From the NCBI RefSeq assembly GCF_013307435.2, contig NZ_CP102845.1:4441001-4505000 (forward strand): DNA of 64,000 bases. The letters run 5' to 3'. Of this stretch, positions 51,992 through 62,376 are shown piece by piece. A program made the position numbers and the translations under genes. The notes beneath the pieces are model-generated. The model saw only the letters and a program-made list of their open reading frames with translations. It was not told where the DNA came from and searched no databases. The DNA is from Microvirga terrae. Lineage in GTDB: Bacteria; Pseudomonadota; Alphaproteobacteria; Rhizobiales; Beijerinckiaceae. Within the stretch, counting starts at the first letter, position 1. Each line of letters opens with the position of its first letter.

Positions 51992-54181
51992 TCAGGCCTC
52001 CAACCAGTTCCGCAATCTGGACAGCCGCGGCTCGTCCTCGTGGGTGACGGCCTGCGCCAGGGCGGCCCGACTTCCCACCATGACGACGAGGCGGCTGGCG
52101 CGTGTCACTCCGGTATAAAGCAGCTTGCGTCGCAGCATGGAGGCCTGCTGCGACGCCACGGGAATGATCACCGCCGGATACTCGGACCCCTGCGCCTTGT
52201 GGATCGTCACCGCATAGGCAAGCGCCAGTTCGTCGAGCTCCCGGAGCGTATAGACCACGAGCCTGTCGTCGAAGGCGACGGTGAGTTCGCCGTGGTCCCG
52301 ATCGACCTCGCGCACGATGCCGACCTCCCCGTTGTAAACGTCCCGCTCGTAGTCGTTCCTCACCTGCATGACCTTGTCGCCGGGACCATAGACCCAGCCG
52401 GCCCGGTGCAGGCTCTCTGTTCCCGGCGGATTGAAGATCTGCTGCAATTCGCCGTTCAGCATGTGGGTGCCGAGCCGCCCACGATTCATGGGGCAGAGGA
52501 CCTGCACGTCGCGCACGGGATCGAGGCCGAATTTCCTCGGGATGCGATCGCGCATGAGGATCGTCATCTTGGCGATGGCATCGGCAGGCGTGTCGGCTTC
52601 GACGAAATAGAGATCCGAGTCCGGCTGATGCGAAAGGTCCGGCACGATTCCGCGATTGATGGCGTGCGCAACCGTGATGATGCGGCTTTCGCGCTCCTGG
52701 CGGAACACTTCCCGCAGGTGAACGACCGGAACGGTCCCGGAGTCGATGATGTCGGAGAGGATCTGTCCGGGCCCGATGGAGGGGAGCTGATCCACGTCAC
52801 CCACGAGGAGCAGGCAGGCCTCGTCCGGCAGGGCGCGCAACAGAGCCGCCATGAGCCGGATATCGAGCATGGACGCCTCGTCGACGACGAGGAGATTGCA
52901 GTCGAGCGGCGCCTTGGCGTTGCGTCGGAACCCGCCCTCGGAGGCTTCGAGAAGCCGGTGCACGGTCTTGGCGGAAAAGCCCGTGCTCTCGGCGAGCCGC
53001 TTGGCCGCCCGGCCGGTCGGAGCGCAAAGAGCGACCTGCAGCTGATGCTTCGCGCACAGATGCGTGAGGCTCCGGATGAGCGTGGTCTTGCCCACGCCCG
53101 GGCCGCCGGTGACGACGAGCACCTTGGCCTCGCAGGAGGCAATCAGCGCCTCGCGCTGACTGGCCGAGTAGGAGACGCCCGTGGCAGCCTCGGTCTCGGC
53201 GATCACCTGCGCGGGATCGAGTCCGCGCCAGGGATGGAACCCTTGAGCGACCTCCTTCAGGCGCTGGGCGATGAAGAGCTCGGCCCCGTACAGGCTCTTG
53301 AGAAAGATGCTACGGGGTCCGTCGAGTTCGTCGGCGACGAGCTGGCCGGCCGCGCATTGCGCATCGAGCACGGGCAACAGCCGGTCCGTCGGAACGGTGA
53401 GCAGAGCGCTCGCCTGCCGCAGGATTTCGTCGACCGACAATCCGGAATGTCCCTCTTTCACGGCGTCCGACAGAACGGTGGCGAGTCCCGCCTGCAGGCG
53501 GATATCGGCAGTGGGCTCGAAGGCGAGCCGCATGGCGACCTGATCGGCCAGGGAGAACTCGAAACCCGGGAGATCGAGGGCGAGCCGGTACGGGTTGGCC
53601 TTGATGATGTCGATGGCCCCGACTCCATAGGCGCGATAGATGCGCGCGAGCAGAAAGCCCCCGATGCCGTGGGCGTTCAGGAAGGCCGCGATGTCCTTTA
53701 ACGCGCGATGCTCGGCCCAGGCCTCGCCGATGCCGAGCGCCTTCGCCATGCCGATGCCATGCACGCGCGTCAGCTCGTGGGGCTTCTTTTCGATCACGTC
53801 GAGGATGCGCGATCCAAAGGAAGCGATGAGCCGCTGCGCCACGGCTGGGCCGACCCCTTTCAGGAGGCCGGATCCGAGAAAGCGCTGCAGGTCTTCCGCC
53901 GTGGTCGGCGCTGTGGTCCTCAATTCGGCGGCGCGAAACTGAACCCCATGGTTGCGATCGTGCAGCCACTCCCCGCTCGCCTCGACCACTTCGCCGATGG
54001 CGACCGACGGCGCGTGGCCGACCACGGCGACCGGCTTGCGGTGCCCTCGCGCCTTGACGCGCAGCACGCAGAAGCCGCTCTCGTCGTTGTGGAACGTCAC
54101 CCGCTCGATGGAGCCGACGAGATGTTCGGTGAGGGTGAGAGCGTCCTGACTGGCCGCAGGGAGGGCGGAGGATTTCGGCAT
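51992..54181 (-). CDS. recD2: RecD2-type ATP-dependent DNA helicase
   Basis: A 729-residue superfamily 1B helicase. The N-terminal OB/helix-hairpin-helix part (FLGSGLLKGVGPAVAQRLIASFG, VHGIGMAKALGIGEAW) is the RecD2 hallmark, absent from RecBCD RecD. Walker A VVTGGPGVGKTTLIRS near residue 360, Walker B LLVVDEASMLD near 430, GDVDQLPSIGPG, and C-terminal TIHKAQGSEYPAV plus LLYTGVTRASRLVVMVG. Acts 5'-3' in recombination and repair independently of RecBC. Own transcription unit, separated from the upstream gene by a terminator. Confidence 0.95.
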   Translation of the reverse strand: MPKSSALPAASQDALTLTEHLVGSIERVTFHNDESGFCVLRVKARGHRKPVAVVGHAPSVAIGEVVEASGEWLHDRNHGVQFRAAELRTTAPTTAEDLQRFLGSGLLKGVGPAVAQRLIASFGSRILDVIEKKPHELTRVHGIGMAKALGIGEAWAEHRALKDIAAFLNAHGIGGFLLARIYRAYGVGAIDIIKANPYRLALDLPGFEFSLADQVAMRLAFEPTADIRLQAGLATVLSDAVKEGHSGLSVDEILRQASALLTVPTDRLLPVLDAQCAAGQLVADELDGPRSIFLKSLYGAELFIAQRLKEVAQGFHPWRGLDPAQVIAETEAATGVSYSASQREALIASCEAKVLVVTGGPGVGKTTLIRSLTHLCAKHQLQVALCAPTGRAAKRLAESTGFSAKTVHRLLEASEGGFRRNAKAPLDCNLLVVDEASMLDIRLMAALLRALPDEACLLLVGDVDQLPSIGPGQILSDIIDSGTVPVVHLREVFRQERESRIITVAHAINRGIVPDLSHQPDSDLYFVEADTPADAIAKMTILMRDRIPRKFGLDPVRDVQVLCPMNRGRLGTHMLNGELQQIFNPPGTESLHRAGWVYGPGDKVMQVRNDYERDVYNGEVGIVREVDRDHGELTVAFDDRLVVYTLRELDELALAYAVTIHKAQGSEYPAVIIPVASQQASMLRRKLLYTGVTRASRLVVMVGSRAALAQAVTHEDEPRLSRLRNWLEA

Positions 54182-54276: not shown

Positions 54277-54942
54277 TTAGGCTGCCTTCTTGGTCGGCCA
54301 TCCGAGCTCCACGAGACGCGCCTTGGCGAAGTCGCGGATCTCGTCGCGGATGCCTTCCGGCAGATCCGCGAGGGTCTTCTGCGTGTCGGCGTGGAGCATC
54401 AGGTCCGTGACCGCATTGATGGTCTTGGCCTTCTTGATCTTCGCCTTCAGATCGTCCTCGACCTTGCCGTCGGCGACCGCTGCTTCGGCCTTGCCCTTCT
54501 GCGGCTCGGACTTCTCGACTTCCACATGGGGATCGGCATAGCCGGGGCGGCCCTGCTTGAACTCGTCCGCCTCCTCCTCGGAGTAGACGTAGCCGTGCAG
54601 CTCGATGAGCTTGAGGATCACCCGGTCCTTCGCACGCTTCTCGGCCATGGCATAGACGTAAGCCGCCTGCTTGCCGGAGACGCGATAGTTGACGCCGATC
54701 AGCGCCTCGCCGATCGACCATTCCACGCGATCGCCCATGCGGCCGGTCACCTGGATCACGGCCTCGTCGCGCTCGGCACGGATGATCTTGGGCTCGTCGA
54801 AGACGACCTTGGCCTGGGCGGCGATCCGCTCGAGGGTCTTGTGATAGACCACAGCCGTCCCCTGGACGCGCCAGACGTTTCCGGCCATCGGTTCGCCGAA
54901 TTTCGCCAGCACCTCGGAAATTTTCTTGTCTGTCGTATTCAT
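54277..54942 (-). CDS. Rad52-like single-strand annealing protein candidate
   Basis: A 221-residue protein starting at ATG 54942 (MNTTDKKISEVLAKFG). The first 115 residues show the layout of the Rad52/Sak3-like annealing proteins: AVVYHKTLERIAAQAKVVF, a beta-hairpin with GRMGDRVEWSIGEAL, then YVYAMAEKRAKDRVILKLIELHGYVYSEEEADEF. A Lys/Ala-rich linker follows, and a C-terminal helical end (ADTQKTLADLPEGIRDEIRDFAKARL). Assignment rests on motif layout only. Its promoter carries a LexA box, consistent with recombination work during SOS. Confidence 0.55.
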   Translation of the reverse strand: MNTTDKKISEVLAKFGEPMAGNVWRVQGTAVVYHKTLERIAAQAKVVFDEPKIIRAERDEAVIQVTGRMGDRVEWSIGEALIGVNYRVSGKQAAYVYAMAEKRAKDRVILKLIELHGYVYSEEEADEFKQGRPGYADPHVEVEKSEPQKGKAEAAVADGKVEDDLKAKIKKAKTINAVTDLMLHADTQKTLADLPEGIRDEIRDFAKARLVELGWPTKKAA

Positions 54943-55015
54943 CCTCGATCCTAACTCTCTCAGAGGCCCGCACATCGGAGACGCGCTCTTGTCGCAGCCT
55001 TGTCACGGCAGGCGC

Positions 55016-56016: not shown

Positions 56017-57018
56017 CTAAGACTGCGCCGCGTGGCGCTCGACCGCTTCGCCCAGAAGCGAGCGCACGATGGCGCGCACCGCGTCCGACGTGTCGTCGGA
56101 TGCGAACTTCGCCTCGATCTCATCGCGGATGATCGATCCGTCGCCGCTGCGCTTCAGCTCCGTGGCGGATTCAGCCTGGAGCAGCGTGACAAAGGCACTC
56201 TCGACCTCCCTGGCCACGGCGTCGCTGTCAGCCGCATCGACCACGCGTCCGGTGAGATCGAACACATGGCTTTCGAACGGCAGAGCCTGCGGCTCCAGGG
56301 CTCCGTTGCCGTCCAGGATCCAGGCACGGGGAACGTGATCGACGAGATCGACGGATTGGCGCGTGATGGTGCCGGGATTCATCCAGCGGGTGCGTCCGGC
56401 GAGAATGGATTTCTGCGTCTTGTGGATGTGCCCGTTGATCAGCACGTCGCAGCCCTCGACCGCGAAGGGCGGCACCGCTCCCGGATAGCCGCCGTCAAAC
56501 GCGATGTCGTGGTGCGTGAACCAGGCATGGAGATCGACGCCCGCGAATGAGCCGCGCGCATCGGTGGGAATCGCCTGACCATACGGGGTCATGCCGATGC
56601 CGATCCGCCGCGCGCCGATCTGGACCTCGGTCACCGGAGACGACGACGCCACCACGTCGATCACGTCGCACAGCCCCAGGAGCGCCAGCGAGTCGCTGTC
56701 GGTCAGCGTCGTGTGCTGGATATCGTGGTTGCCCACATTGACGATGGGTCGATGTTGAAAGCCTTTGAGAACGCGGATGAGCTGGTTCTTGAGCGCCTCG
56801 TCGGTCTCGACGGGACGATCGAACAGGTCGCCCAGGATGACGACCGCAAGCCCGCGCTCGTTGGCGATGGCAACGCAACGCTCGAGCTTGCCGAGAACGG
56901 CCTGCGGCCAGACGGCATCCTTGCGCCGCCCCGGCCGCCGCGAGCCCACGTGCGGATCTCCGATGACAAGGACGCCGTTGCACGTCATAGCGGGAAGTCG
57001 ATCTCCGGACAGGATCAT
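56017..57018 (-). CDS. SbcD/Mre11-like metallophosphoesterase nuclease
   Basis: A 333-residue protein whose ATG (57018) overlaps the stop of the Rad50-like gene by 4 bases. Five metallophosphoesterase motifs: VIGDPHVGS (residue 19), ILGDLFDRP (63), NVGNHDIQ (94), WFTHHDIAFDG (165), LINGHIHKTQ (190). Such a pair with a Rad50-like ATPase makes the Mre11-Rad50 nuclease that opens hairpins and trims broken ends. The C-terminal 80 residues (SDAVAREVESAFVTLLQAES) may bind the coiled-coil base. Confidence 0.85.
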   Translation of the reverse strand: MILSGDRLPAMTCNGVLVIGDPHVGSRRPGRRKDAVWPQAVLGKLERCVAIANERGLAVVILGDLFDRPVETDEALKNQLIRVLKGFQHRPIVNVGNHDIQHTTLTDSDSLALLGLCDVIDVVASSSPVTEVQIGARRIGIGMTPYGQAIPTDARGSFAGVDLHAWFTHHDIAFDGGYPGAVPPFAVEGCDVLINGHIHKTQKSILAGRTRWMNPGTITRQSVDLVDHVPRAWILDGNGALEPQALPFESHVFDLTGRVVDAADSDAVAREVESAFVTLLQAESATELKRSGDGSIIRDEIEAKFASDDTSDAVRAIVRSLLGEAVERHAAQS

Positions 57019-58850
57019 GCGGTCAGCCGCTCCGACGGCGAGGCTAAATGAGAAGGATGGGCGTGATGGTCCAAAAGGGTCTCCGGCTTCACCGGTGCGC
57101 CGCAGGTGGGGCACAGGCCGCCGGTCTCCTCGATGAGCTTCGCCATGTCGGCCTGGACGGATACGAGCCCTTCATCGACCTTCGCGAGCCGGTCCTGCGC
57201 GATCCGGGCGGCGCTGCGAAGATCGTTGACACGTTTCAGGATGTTTTGCGCCGGCGCGGTGTTTTCAAGGGCTGGAATGCCGTCGGGAAGGTCGTGCAAC
57301 GCGGCCAGCCGCTTCCTGCTCCGAGCGAGGCGGTGACCGAGCTGCAGGACCCGTTCTCCCAGCCGCTCCCGCTCGCGCGAGCGCTCCACCATGCGCGTCA
57401 AGCGCGTCAGTTCCTCGGCGTCCGGAAGCATTGCCGTGATGGTCGCTCGAGCCTTCGCCTTGCCCAGTCGGCGATCGAGATCCGCAATCTGCGACGTGCG
57501 CTGCTGCAATCGCTGCAGGTGTGCTGCAGCGTCCGTGAGGGCGCCTCCCTGCTGTCGGATGGCCGACAGCCGGTTCTTGAGACTATCGATCTCCTCCATC
57601 CCTTCAAGCGTTTCCTCGACGCCGATCAGCTCCCGCTCGCCGCTGCGCACGAGATCGTTGTCTCGCCGGCAGCGCTCGCGATGGATGACGAGCATGTCGC
57701 GGATATAGCCAGCCTCCTGGCCGATCGAGAGAACGGCCGAGCGGCGGGAGGGCGTCTCGCCGAGAAGGAACACGGGAAACTTCTGGTGCGCGATGTGGAC
57801 GTCGAGGTCCTCCACCTTGCGGATGCGGATGAGATCGGCGACCCAGTCGGGAACATTGCGCCCGCCGGTCTCGTAGCGCATGCCCCGCTCCTCGACGACG
57901 GAACCGTCGGCCTCATGCAGCGACCAGATGTTGACCGGCGAGCGGCGGGGCTGGCGCGTGAAGCGCAAGACCCGGTTGCCGGCGACACCGATCTCGATGC
58001 CTGCCGCCTTCGCACCCGCCCGAACGAGGCTGTCGCGGGCCTCACCGTAGAACACGGCGCGCAAGGCACGGATGAAGGTGGACTTGCCGCGATTGTTTGG
58101 ACCGATAAGCGCGTTCACACCGGGGCTCAAATGAAGCGTCGTGTCCTTGTAGGCCTGCACGTTGACGAGCCGGATGAACCGCAGGCCCGGCTGCGCATCG
58201 TCCCACAACCCTGTGGTGTCAACCGACTGCACGTCGACGCCCAAGGCGGGCTCGCCGACGATGCGGGCGATGTGGAACTTGCCCGAGAACTGCGACAGGT
58301 CGTGGTGGGACACGGCGAGGCACTGCACGCCGAGCCGGGCAGCGCCGTCCTCCAGCACCTTGTAGAAGGAGGAGACTCGTTCCGGCGCGATCCAGCAATC
58401 GGCCTCATCGAGGGCGAGGAAACGGGCGACATCCGCCTTGACCACTGCGATCAGACGCAGCGCCATGCCGATCACGTTGGTAAGCGCGCCGCCGTTGTCC
58501 TCCAGCACGTCCTCGAGCGTGCCGTCGGGACGGCGTACGCAGATGTCGAGCGCGGCGAGGCCGCGTTCCGTCGAGAGATCCAGGGCCACTGGCTTCTCGC
58601 CCGGCAGCACCTCCTGAACGAGGGCCGTCAGCAAGGTCTCGAACGCCGAGAGGCTGCGGCGGTTGGCGCTGCCGTGCACGGCCTCGATGAACGCCTCCAC
58701 GTCGTCCTTGACGGCAAGCCGCCCCTTGGCGAGCTCGATCGCACGCGTCAGCTCCTCGCGCCGCGTCCGCAAGGCATCGCGCCGCCCCTCCAGACGCGCG
58801 AGGGCCGCCGCCGCCCGCGCGAGATCATGATCGGTGGACGGTGGAATCAA
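57015..58850 (-). CDS. Rad50/SbcC-like ATPase with circularly permuted lobes
   Basis: A 611-residue protein, TTG start at 58850 overlapping the previous stop (TTGA). Order of parts: short coiled coil (8-45); then elements that normally end Rad50: signature-like LEDNGGALTN (116-125), Walker B FLALDEAD (144-151) and H-loop VSHHD (180-184); then elements that normally begin it: Walker A IGPNNRGKST (249-258) and Q-loop HQKFPVFLLG (355-364); then a long coiled coil (about 395-575) and a zinc hook CPTCG (580-584) near the C-terminus. The coiled-coil break falls at the hook. All core ATPase motifs are present, so it should be active. Partnered with the Mre11-like gene. Confidence 0.82.
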   Translation of the reverse strand: MIPPSTDHDLARAAAALARLEGRRDALRTRREELTRAIELAKGRLAVKDDVEAFIEAVHGSANRRSLSAFETLLTALVQEVLPGEKPVALDLSTERGLAALDICVRRPDGTLEDVLEDNGGALTNVIGMALRLIAVVKADVARFLALDEADCWIAPERVSSFYKVLEDGAARLGVQCLAVSHHDLSQFSGKFHIARIVGEPALGVDVQSVDTTGLWDDAQPGLRFIRLVNVQAYKDTTLHLSPGVNALIGPNNRGKSTFIRALRAVFYGEARDSLVRAGAKAAGIEIGVAGNRVLRFTRQPRRSPVNIWSLHEADGSVVEERGMRYETGGRNVPDWVADLIRIRKVEDLDVHIAHQKFPVFLLGETPSRRSAVLSIGQEAGYIRDMLVIHRERCRRDNDLVRSGERELIGVEETLEGMEEIDSLKNRLSAIRQQGGALTDAAAHLQRLQQRTSQIADLDRRLGKAKARATITAMLPDAEELTRLTRMVERSRERERLGERVLQLGHRLARSRKRLAALHDLPDGIPALENTAPAQNILKRVNDLRSAARIAQDRLAKVDEGLVSVQADMAKLIEETGGLCPTCGAPVKPETLLDHHAHPSHLASPSERLTA

Positions 58851-59143
58851 CGCTCGTCTCCAAGCTGTTTGAGACGGGTTTCGACCTCGCGCAGGGCAGC
58901 GCCGAACTCCTCGGTGAGCTTGGCATTGCGGGCCTGGGCATCCTCGATCAGGCCCTGAAGTTGCCCCTCGTCGTCCGTTCCGAACTCCGACAGAGCGAGA
59001 GCCCGCGCTTCTTCCAGCTCCAGCGTCAGACGCTCGACCTCGCCCTCCGCCCGGATGCGCTCCGCTCGCAATCTGTCGAAGGTCTTGCGCATCTCCTCCA
59101 GGCGCCGGAGCTGGTCCGTTTCGAGGCGTGAGAGAGTGGTCAT
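58847..59143 (-). CDS. Small coiled-coil protein coupled to the Rad50-like gene
   Basis: A 98-residue, highly charged, wholly helical protein (LSRLETDQLRRLEEMRKTFDRLRAERI...). No transmembrane or enzymatic motif. Its TGA overlaps the TTG start of the ATPase gene, so translation is coupled. It could supply a missing coiled-coil arm or act as a cofactor of the Mre11-Rad50-like complex (inference). First gene of the three-gene leftward operon. Confidence 0.75.
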   Translation of the reverse strand: MTTLSRLETDQLRRLEEMRKTFDRLRAERIRAEGEVERLTLELEEARALALSEFGTDDEGQLQGLIEDAQARNAKLTEEFGAALREVETRLKQLGDER

Positions 59144-61875: not shown

Positions 61876-62376
61876 ATGGCTGGAAGCGTGAACAAGGTGA
61901 TTTTGGTAGGGAATCTGGGGCGGGACCCTGAGGTTCGGCGTCTGTCGAACGGGGAGCCTGTGGTGAACCTTCGGATCGCCACGTCGGAGACCTGGAAGGA
62001 CAAGGGCACGGGCGAGCGCAAGGAGAAGACCGAGTGGCACTCGGTGGTGATCTTCAACGAGAACTTGGCCCGGGTGGCGGAGCAGTACCTGAAGAAGGGC
62101 TCGAAGGTGTATCTTGAGGGTCAGCTGCAGACGCGCAAGTGGACCGACCAGAGCGGCCAGGAGAAGTACACCACCGAGGTGGTGCTGCAGCGCTTCCGGG
62201 GCGAGCTGACGATCCTGGACAGCCGCGGCGGCGGCGGGGCGTCGGAGTTCGGCGACGACGAGCCGGGCCAGATCAGCCGCGGCGGCGACTTCGGACGATC
62301 ATCCCCCATGGAGCGCAGGCCCGAGCCGGCCGGCGGCTCCCGGCACAGCGACTTCGACGACGACATTCCGTTCTAG
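61876..62376 (+). CDS. ssb: Single-stranded DNA-binding protein
   Basis: A 166-residue SSB: OB fold at residues 5-110 ([54 protein letters not shown]), Gly/acidic linker and the C-terminal tip DDDIPF that recruits repair partners. Forms a tetramer coating single-stranded DNA. LexA box upstream, terminator downstream. Confidence 0.98.

Follow-up and report, generated by a model that had tools for sequence, protein, structure and literature searches.

Rad50 and SMC chains are usually regarded as having one fixed layout: lobe, arm, hook or hinge, second arm and second lobe. Conformational changes in the head of Rad50 and in its distant hook are presumed to be coupled through the arms (PMC5344682). 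Fusion proteins of Mre11 and Rad50 have been described, including one from Bacillus phage 0305phi8-36 in which one SbcC P-loop segment was reportedly not observed (PMC3175470). An earlier note on the DNA analysed here knew of no family with the layout reported below; our full-text literature search, which covered few subscription papers, likewise gave no recognised description of a permuted or split Rad50 among the matches listed.

In the window, by which we mean the whole stretch of 64,000 nucleotides analysed, from a soil bacterium, a cassette carries, in this order, a small helical ORF, a Rad50-like ATPase with permuted lobes and an Mre11-like protein. Its features are as follows.

58847..59143, minus strand: small helix-GTDD-helix protein, 98 aa; motif and position kept upstream of the permuted gene; helicity inferred
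57015..58850, minus strand: permuted Rad50-like ATPase, 611 aa, TTG start
58200..58850, minus strand: short N-terminal coil and Rad50 C-lobe, residues 1-217 (hhalign to phage C-lobe proteins; AlphaFold2 (AF2) and VIA)
58476..58493, minus strand: signature-like motif GGALTN, residues 120-125 (G121 and N125 in 209/209 aligned rows)
58398..58421, minus strand: Walker B, residues 144-151 (D148-E149; conserved alignment columns)
58299..58313, minus strand: H-loop, residues 180-184 (H182; conserved alignment columns)
57723..58193, minus strand: Rad50 N-lobe, residues 220-376 (Pfam AAA_23; family profile to 5f3w; VIA to 1f2u_C)
58077..58106, minus strand: Walker A, residues 249-258 (G250, G255, K256; conserved alignment columns)
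57759..57788, minus strand: Q-loop region, residues 355-364 (Q356; conserved alignment columns)
57126..57719, minus strand: helical arm, four predicted helices 378-417, 421-473, 478-518 and 532-575 (AF2)
57099..57113, minus strand: CPTCG, predicted half zinc hook, residues 580-584 (both Cys in 208/209 rows; 6zff match)
56017..57018, minus strand: Mre11/SbcD-like metallophosphoesterase, 333 aa (Pfam Metallophos E 2.3e-7; PHROG SbcD E 2.1e-15)

Gene, frame and lobe order of the ATPase

The ATPase gene overlaps each neighbour by four bases (TTGA, 58847-58850, with the upstream ORF; ATGA, 57015-57018, with the downstream ORF), which fits the expectation for a translationally coupled operon. In the relative L055 the complete stop-to-stop frame is merely 612 codons, and between the window and L050 the gene has a dN of 0.043 and a dS of 0.275, so that both the start and the frame hold; dN was far below dS for all three cassette genes in close comparisons. 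Judged from these comparisons and from the full-length homologues, this is a conserved gene and a frameshift, a concern raised in the earlier note, is excluded. An antisense ORF of 636 aa lies opposite it (57048-58958, plus strand) and is probably spurious in this G+C-rich DNA.

Along the 611-residue chain the order is C-lobe, short linker, N-lobe, helical arm and, near the C-terminus, CPTCG; the CxxC thus stands at the end of the arm, where an SMC (condensin-like) protein would have its globular hinge. The order read in the earlier note, with Walker B and the H-loop ahead of Walker A and the Q-loop and CPTCG last, is the one found here. The ten motif residues tested (G121, Walker A and B, H-loop, Q-loop, Cys) are intact in 208 of 209 aligned rows, a set that includes the window protein and from which four proteins shorter than 560 aa were dropped before counting; the lone exception, P0149, has a gap at CxxC. 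The signature of the permuted C-lobe reads GGxxxN in place of the classical LSGG or SGG.

Matches to the NCBIfam Rad50 profiles begin at residue 225-226, aligned to the profiles' own first positions, and among the PHROGs residues 7-184 match a 211-residue "ATPase" family and residues 223-523 a 491-residue "exonuclease" family. We built a family profile from 19 members (the window protein included) that are 22-70% identical to the window protein, and its best matches among PDB sequences are Rad50 chains (5f3w, E 3.9e-13). In each of the five PDB alignments listed, the start of the Rad50 chain corresponds to the profile from position 228 or 230 onward and its end to positions 129-211, the C-lobe stretches being individually weak. 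A Rad50 fragment of 140 residues, 6zff, which we take to be the hook region, aligns with profile positions 569-633 (E 7e-5).

The matches to phage proteins cover almost the full length. Residues 220-587, cysteine motif included, align by hhalign with a phage N-lobe protein (probability 99.9, E 4.6e-34) and residues 7-205 with a phage C-lobe protein (probability 99.4, E 1e-21), and HMMs of these two phage families gave the order C then N in 19/19 divergent members, again counting the window protein. In the AF2 model, VIA aligned residues 60-210 onto Rad50 738-882 and the N-lobe region onto 1f2u_C. With the C-lobe as query the VIA match list was mostly Rad50 and SMC, and with the whole chain unrelated coiled-coil rows scored equal to Rad50. 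On the plasmids, both lobes fall within a single colinear tblastn piece in 21/21 proteobacterial records.

As an order control, five frames of 1157-1168 aa matched by both lobes (G139, G343, G229, G183 and G190, called SMC by length alone) have the N-lobe part first. A sixth, G385, was omitted since the frame lengths of its two matches differ; its order agrees. No control frame of at least 900 aa was found in L008-L049. When 21 ordinary SbcC proteins were compared with the permuted-family profiles, the lobe order was decided in 0/21 because the C-lobe matches all fell below threshold.

Sequence profiles, structure prediction with structure alignment, and conservation therefore agree on a circularly permuted Rad50/SbcC-like ATPase, as first suggested in the earlier note. 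That note had also moved the chain ends to the hook. The reversed lobe order this implies is borne out, while the meeting of the N- and C-termini at the hook is not, since the N-terminal coil is short. In the AF2 model the last strand of the C-lobe and the first strand of the N-lobe are 16 residues apart (208 to 225), so the ABC fold should stay undisturbed by the joining of the lobes at the head.

Distribution and cassette partners

The permuted gene was matched in 43 of the 48 Microvirga genomes, one match being a fragment, and in none of the other five. One genome has a second permuted copy (G915:C33:235669-237336), 34% identical to the window protein. We collected 51 loci with the gene, from Microvirga, Methylobacterium, Antarcticirhabdus and a few others. 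The plasmid search gave 24 records, three of them short N-lobe matches; the 21 that carry the gene are all from Pseudomonadota and range from 253 kb to 1.32 Mb. In the window genome and in L063, a complete Microvirga chromosome, the gene is chromosomal. Full-length genes occur in at least 2/398 genomes of a phylum sample, at least 1/385 of a class sample and at least 7/149 of a family sample, which are lower bounds because the top 3, 3 and 8 candidates per genome, respectively, were scored. The family spans three proteobacterial classes. A tree of 70 taxa separates the permuted proteins, as a single clade (UFBoot 99-100), from the split ones described below; it contains no ordinary Rad50 outgroup, so we only infer the direction of evolution. 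Two pattern scans of viral contigs with a few peptide patterns found no permuted homologue.

The 333-aa partner in the window has its metal-binding motifs, as judged by eye. An Mre11-like gene lies downstream in 64 of 73 loci by tblastn (the window locus is counted, and some genomes twice), and the small-ORF motif was detected in 66 of the 73; the earlier note had called for a search for homologues with the same order and neighbours, and such homologues were found. Of the nine loci lacking an Mre11-like match, three end too early and six, all gammaproteobacterial, have a different ORF at that position. By eye, the metal motifs are retained by the partner in alpha- and betaproteobacterial rows, with L106 just under the Pfam cut-off, and are mostly gone in gammaproteobacterial ones, where 6/6 partners tested gave no significant Pfam phosphoesterase match. 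On the gammaproteobacterial megaplasmids L102, L103, L104, L112, L113 and L115 the partner is degenerate and appears, from its sequence, to be catalytically dead, and the motifs of the permuted ATPase are intact. Nuclease activity is therefore not essential in every member. In L053 (Microvirga lupini) the Mre11-like tblastn match is limited to residues 119-333, which suggests a broken or mis-assembled copy.

The cassette is flanked in the window by a RecD2-like helicase (51992-54181), by an ORF without a Pfam match (54277-54975), presumably a single-strand annealing protein, and by an SSB (61876-62376). The surroundings are possibly a DNA-repair neighbourhood.

Four of the seven loci without the small-ORF motif have an annotated small ORF that aligns. 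No tblastn match to the window's small protein (P0003) was found on plasmids. Against the phage small family described below, hhalign gave a weak match (probability 22, E 0.001). The profile of the bacterial small proteins hit an ORF upstream of the C-lobe gene in 8 of 57 split loci (E 3e-5 to 1e-8), with no other match at E <1e-4 in those loci. Homology of the small proteins of permuted cassettes and phages is thus only partly supported by sequence.

Split relatives and probable origin

Among the relatives found, the closest are phage proteins, with the C-lobe and the N-lobe encoded by separate genes. Bacillus phage vB_BboS-125 has, in this order, an N-lobe gene ending in CPLC, an AP2/HNH-type gene, a gene for a 78-aa helical protein and a C-lobe gene; the split Rad50 genes are gp32, gp34 and gp35 (PHROGs 16465, 18563 and 15167). 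We examined 57 phage or viral loci, some contigs twice (the N matches of L211 and L216 are partial). The N gene was not found in four of these and the small gene in three; the order N, small, C holds in 50/50 loci having all three. An AP2/HNH-like ORF lies between the N-lobe and small genes in 8 of 28 split loci (L101, L124-L126, L140, L142, L143 and L149, of which L101 and L124 are the same phage). This suggests that a homing endonuclease was involved in the splitting of Rad50.

In split loci the Mre11-like gene has one of four placements: after C, before N, in a single frame with N, or between N and the small gene. The last arrangement, N-Mre11-small-C, is found in Microcystis phage Mvi-JY20 (L122) and, with other genes interspersed, in L210-L214 and L216; it is a cyclic rotation of the permuted cassette, small-C-N-Mre11. 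For the N protein of this Microcystis phage, one scan of viral contigs with a few peptide patterns gave no relative. In Microbacterium phage Magritte (L120), gene 2, near the left end of the record, is C-lobe-like, and no N-lobe gene was found among genes 1-4 by eye or among the annotations in the rest of the 5.9 kb covered.

A split C-lobe is also encoded on nine Bacillota plasmid records. The annotation of the Bacillota megaplasmids L217-L219 gives a metallophosphoesterase gene, then small, then C. One of the three has a separate AAA gene in between; in two the first gene encodes 841 and 937 aa, a length that makes a fusion of the metallophosphoesterase with N likely. The permuted protein matches the phage C and N proteins nearly end to end and so probably arose from a split Rad50 of the phage or Bacillota-plasmid type, whose C-lobe and N-lobe genes were fused in swapped order.

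The proposed complex, its alternatives and known systems

We consider it probable that the cassette encodes an Mre11-Rad50 complex of the SbcCD type whose Rad50 chain has been rearranged and derives from a phage-like split Rad50. Its most likely function, going by the conserved motifs, would be ATP-gated processing of DNA ends or hairpins together with tethering. No SbcC or SbcD scored above the family cut-off in a profile search of the window genome, although the TIGR00618 cut-off is strict and was exceeded in only 1/14 control genomes. Matches below the cut-offs are weak (E 3.2e-4 and 3.6e-4), and an SbcC match at E 1e-20 or better, absent from this genome, is present in 36 of 120 sampled phylum genomes. 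With no SbcC or SbcD over the cut-off, the permuted Rad50 and its Mre11-like partner are probably the Mre11-Rad50 system of this genome.

In the proposed complex two permuted chains would pair around ATP in the usual sandwich, with the Mre11-like nuclease docked at the base and one zinc ion shared by the two terminal CPTCG motifs. The short N-terminal coil would pair with the first part of the arm alone, so the chain ends would not meet at the hook. With less certainty, we would assign to the 98-aa protein the role of the missing distal return strand of the coil, supplied as a separate subunit that closes the arm non-covalently; its position and likely helicity make it the best candidate. Against the proposal, arm and coil lengths show no obvious balance across the family. 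The likeliest working unit would contain a pair each of permuted Rad50 and Mre11-like subunits and probably a pair of small ones.

Our most specific proposal is a tentative one that we would not yet call probable: an open-arm Rad50 with its lobes fused base to base, its hook at the free chain end and its return strand in a separate, possibly exchangeable, subunit, which arose when a phage-type three-piece Rad50 was fused in swapped order and which spread on megaplasmids. If it is correct, a single covalent strand runs from head to hook, and the small protein, by zipping the arm, could control the opening of the ring or the tethering of DNA.

The same permuted Rad50-Mre11 complex could also have an arm of self-contained helical hairpins that needs no partner strand, the small ORF being a regulator or forming its own hairpin. 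This is a possibility of some weight, if rather doubtful. In the AF2 model the arm is broken into four helices whose turns carry conserved prolines (P476, P522 and P526, present in 90% or more of 71 rows), arm length varies widely among homologues, and in 21 ordinary SbcC proteins the small-protein profiles match at scattered sites with no consistent place in the return coil. Against it, the C-lobe coding sequence of permuted loci is immediately preceded by the small ORF, which in split loci has its place between N and C, and no other source of a return strand is visible.

A main role in tethering DNA or in maintaining large plasmids as replicons, with nuclease activity optional, is unlikely. 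The large size of all 21 carrier plasmid records would suit such a role, as would the six gammaproteobacterial partners that look catalytically dead beside invariant ATPase and hook residues, but in Microvirga the gene is chromosomal and the nuclease motifs are retained.

A Lamassu-like anti-phage defence system of small protein, SMC-like ATPase and nuclease is more improbable still. The three-gene layout is alike, the PADLOC LmuB profile matches residues 236-588 (E 1.3e-13), and Lamassu complexes are among the C-lobe structure matches; GajA, PtuA and others match too, however, as expected from general Rad50/SMC similarity. Neither the nuclease nor the small ORF (P0002 and P0003) had a PADLOC match, so no LmuA effector or LmuC was recognised beside the ATPase, although a blank in a profile library does not prove that they are missing. 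The permuted gene, with matches in 43 of the 48 Microvirga genomes, lacks the patchy distribution typical of defence genes.

Chance motifs, a frameshift, an assembly artefact or a fusion of unrelated genes, for which one could cite the TTG start and the antisense ORF as a sign that spurious frames arise in this G+C-rich DNA, are ruled out for practical purposes by full-length homologues in many genera, purifying selection and invariant motifs.

Compared with described systems, the permuted protein resembles Lamassu LmuB as an SMC-like ATPase with sequence similarity across the N-lobe and arm, and differs from it in that the LmuB profile has the usual lobe order (the phage C protein matches profile positions 429-590 of 611). 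Its best viral structure match is A7KV18 from Bacillus phage 0305phi8-36. In L207, a contig of 218,948 bp that we take to be this phage, Mre11 and N are in one frame, followed by small and then C; in such Mre11/Rad50 fusions Mre11 is joined to the N-lobe and the lobe order is unpermuted.

The split Rad50 of phages and Bacillota plasmids is closer. Its two lobe proteins align nearly end to end with the permuted halves, the N protein ends in the hook, a small helical ORF lies between the lobes and an Mre11-like gene is nearby; there, however, the lobes are separate in the order N-small-C, whereas the permuted protein is one continuous ORF, C then N. Under labels such as "AAA family ATPase" or "hypothetical protein", an Mre11-Rad50 system goes unnoticed both on large plasmids and in phage genomes.

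With Rad50 and SbcC (Pyrococcus Rad50, E. coli SbcC) the permuted protein shares both ABC lobes, the coil, the CxxC hook motif and an Mre11/SbcD partner. E. coli SbcC is very divergent from it (hhalign probability 48.6, N-lobe alone, with a single sequence, a weaker comparison than family profiles). Ordinary members have the hook in mid-chain; here the order is permuted, the hook is at the chain end and the N-terminal coil is short. By sequence, then, this is a permuted homologue of Rad50/SbcC and not an ordinary member: a Rad50 chain broken at the hook and return coil and joined at the head, an outcome maintained across the three classes. Such a natural permutant, its coil apparently in two pieces, offers a direct test of the need for covalent continuity of the coil, and thus combines a clear evolutionary route with a direct structural question.
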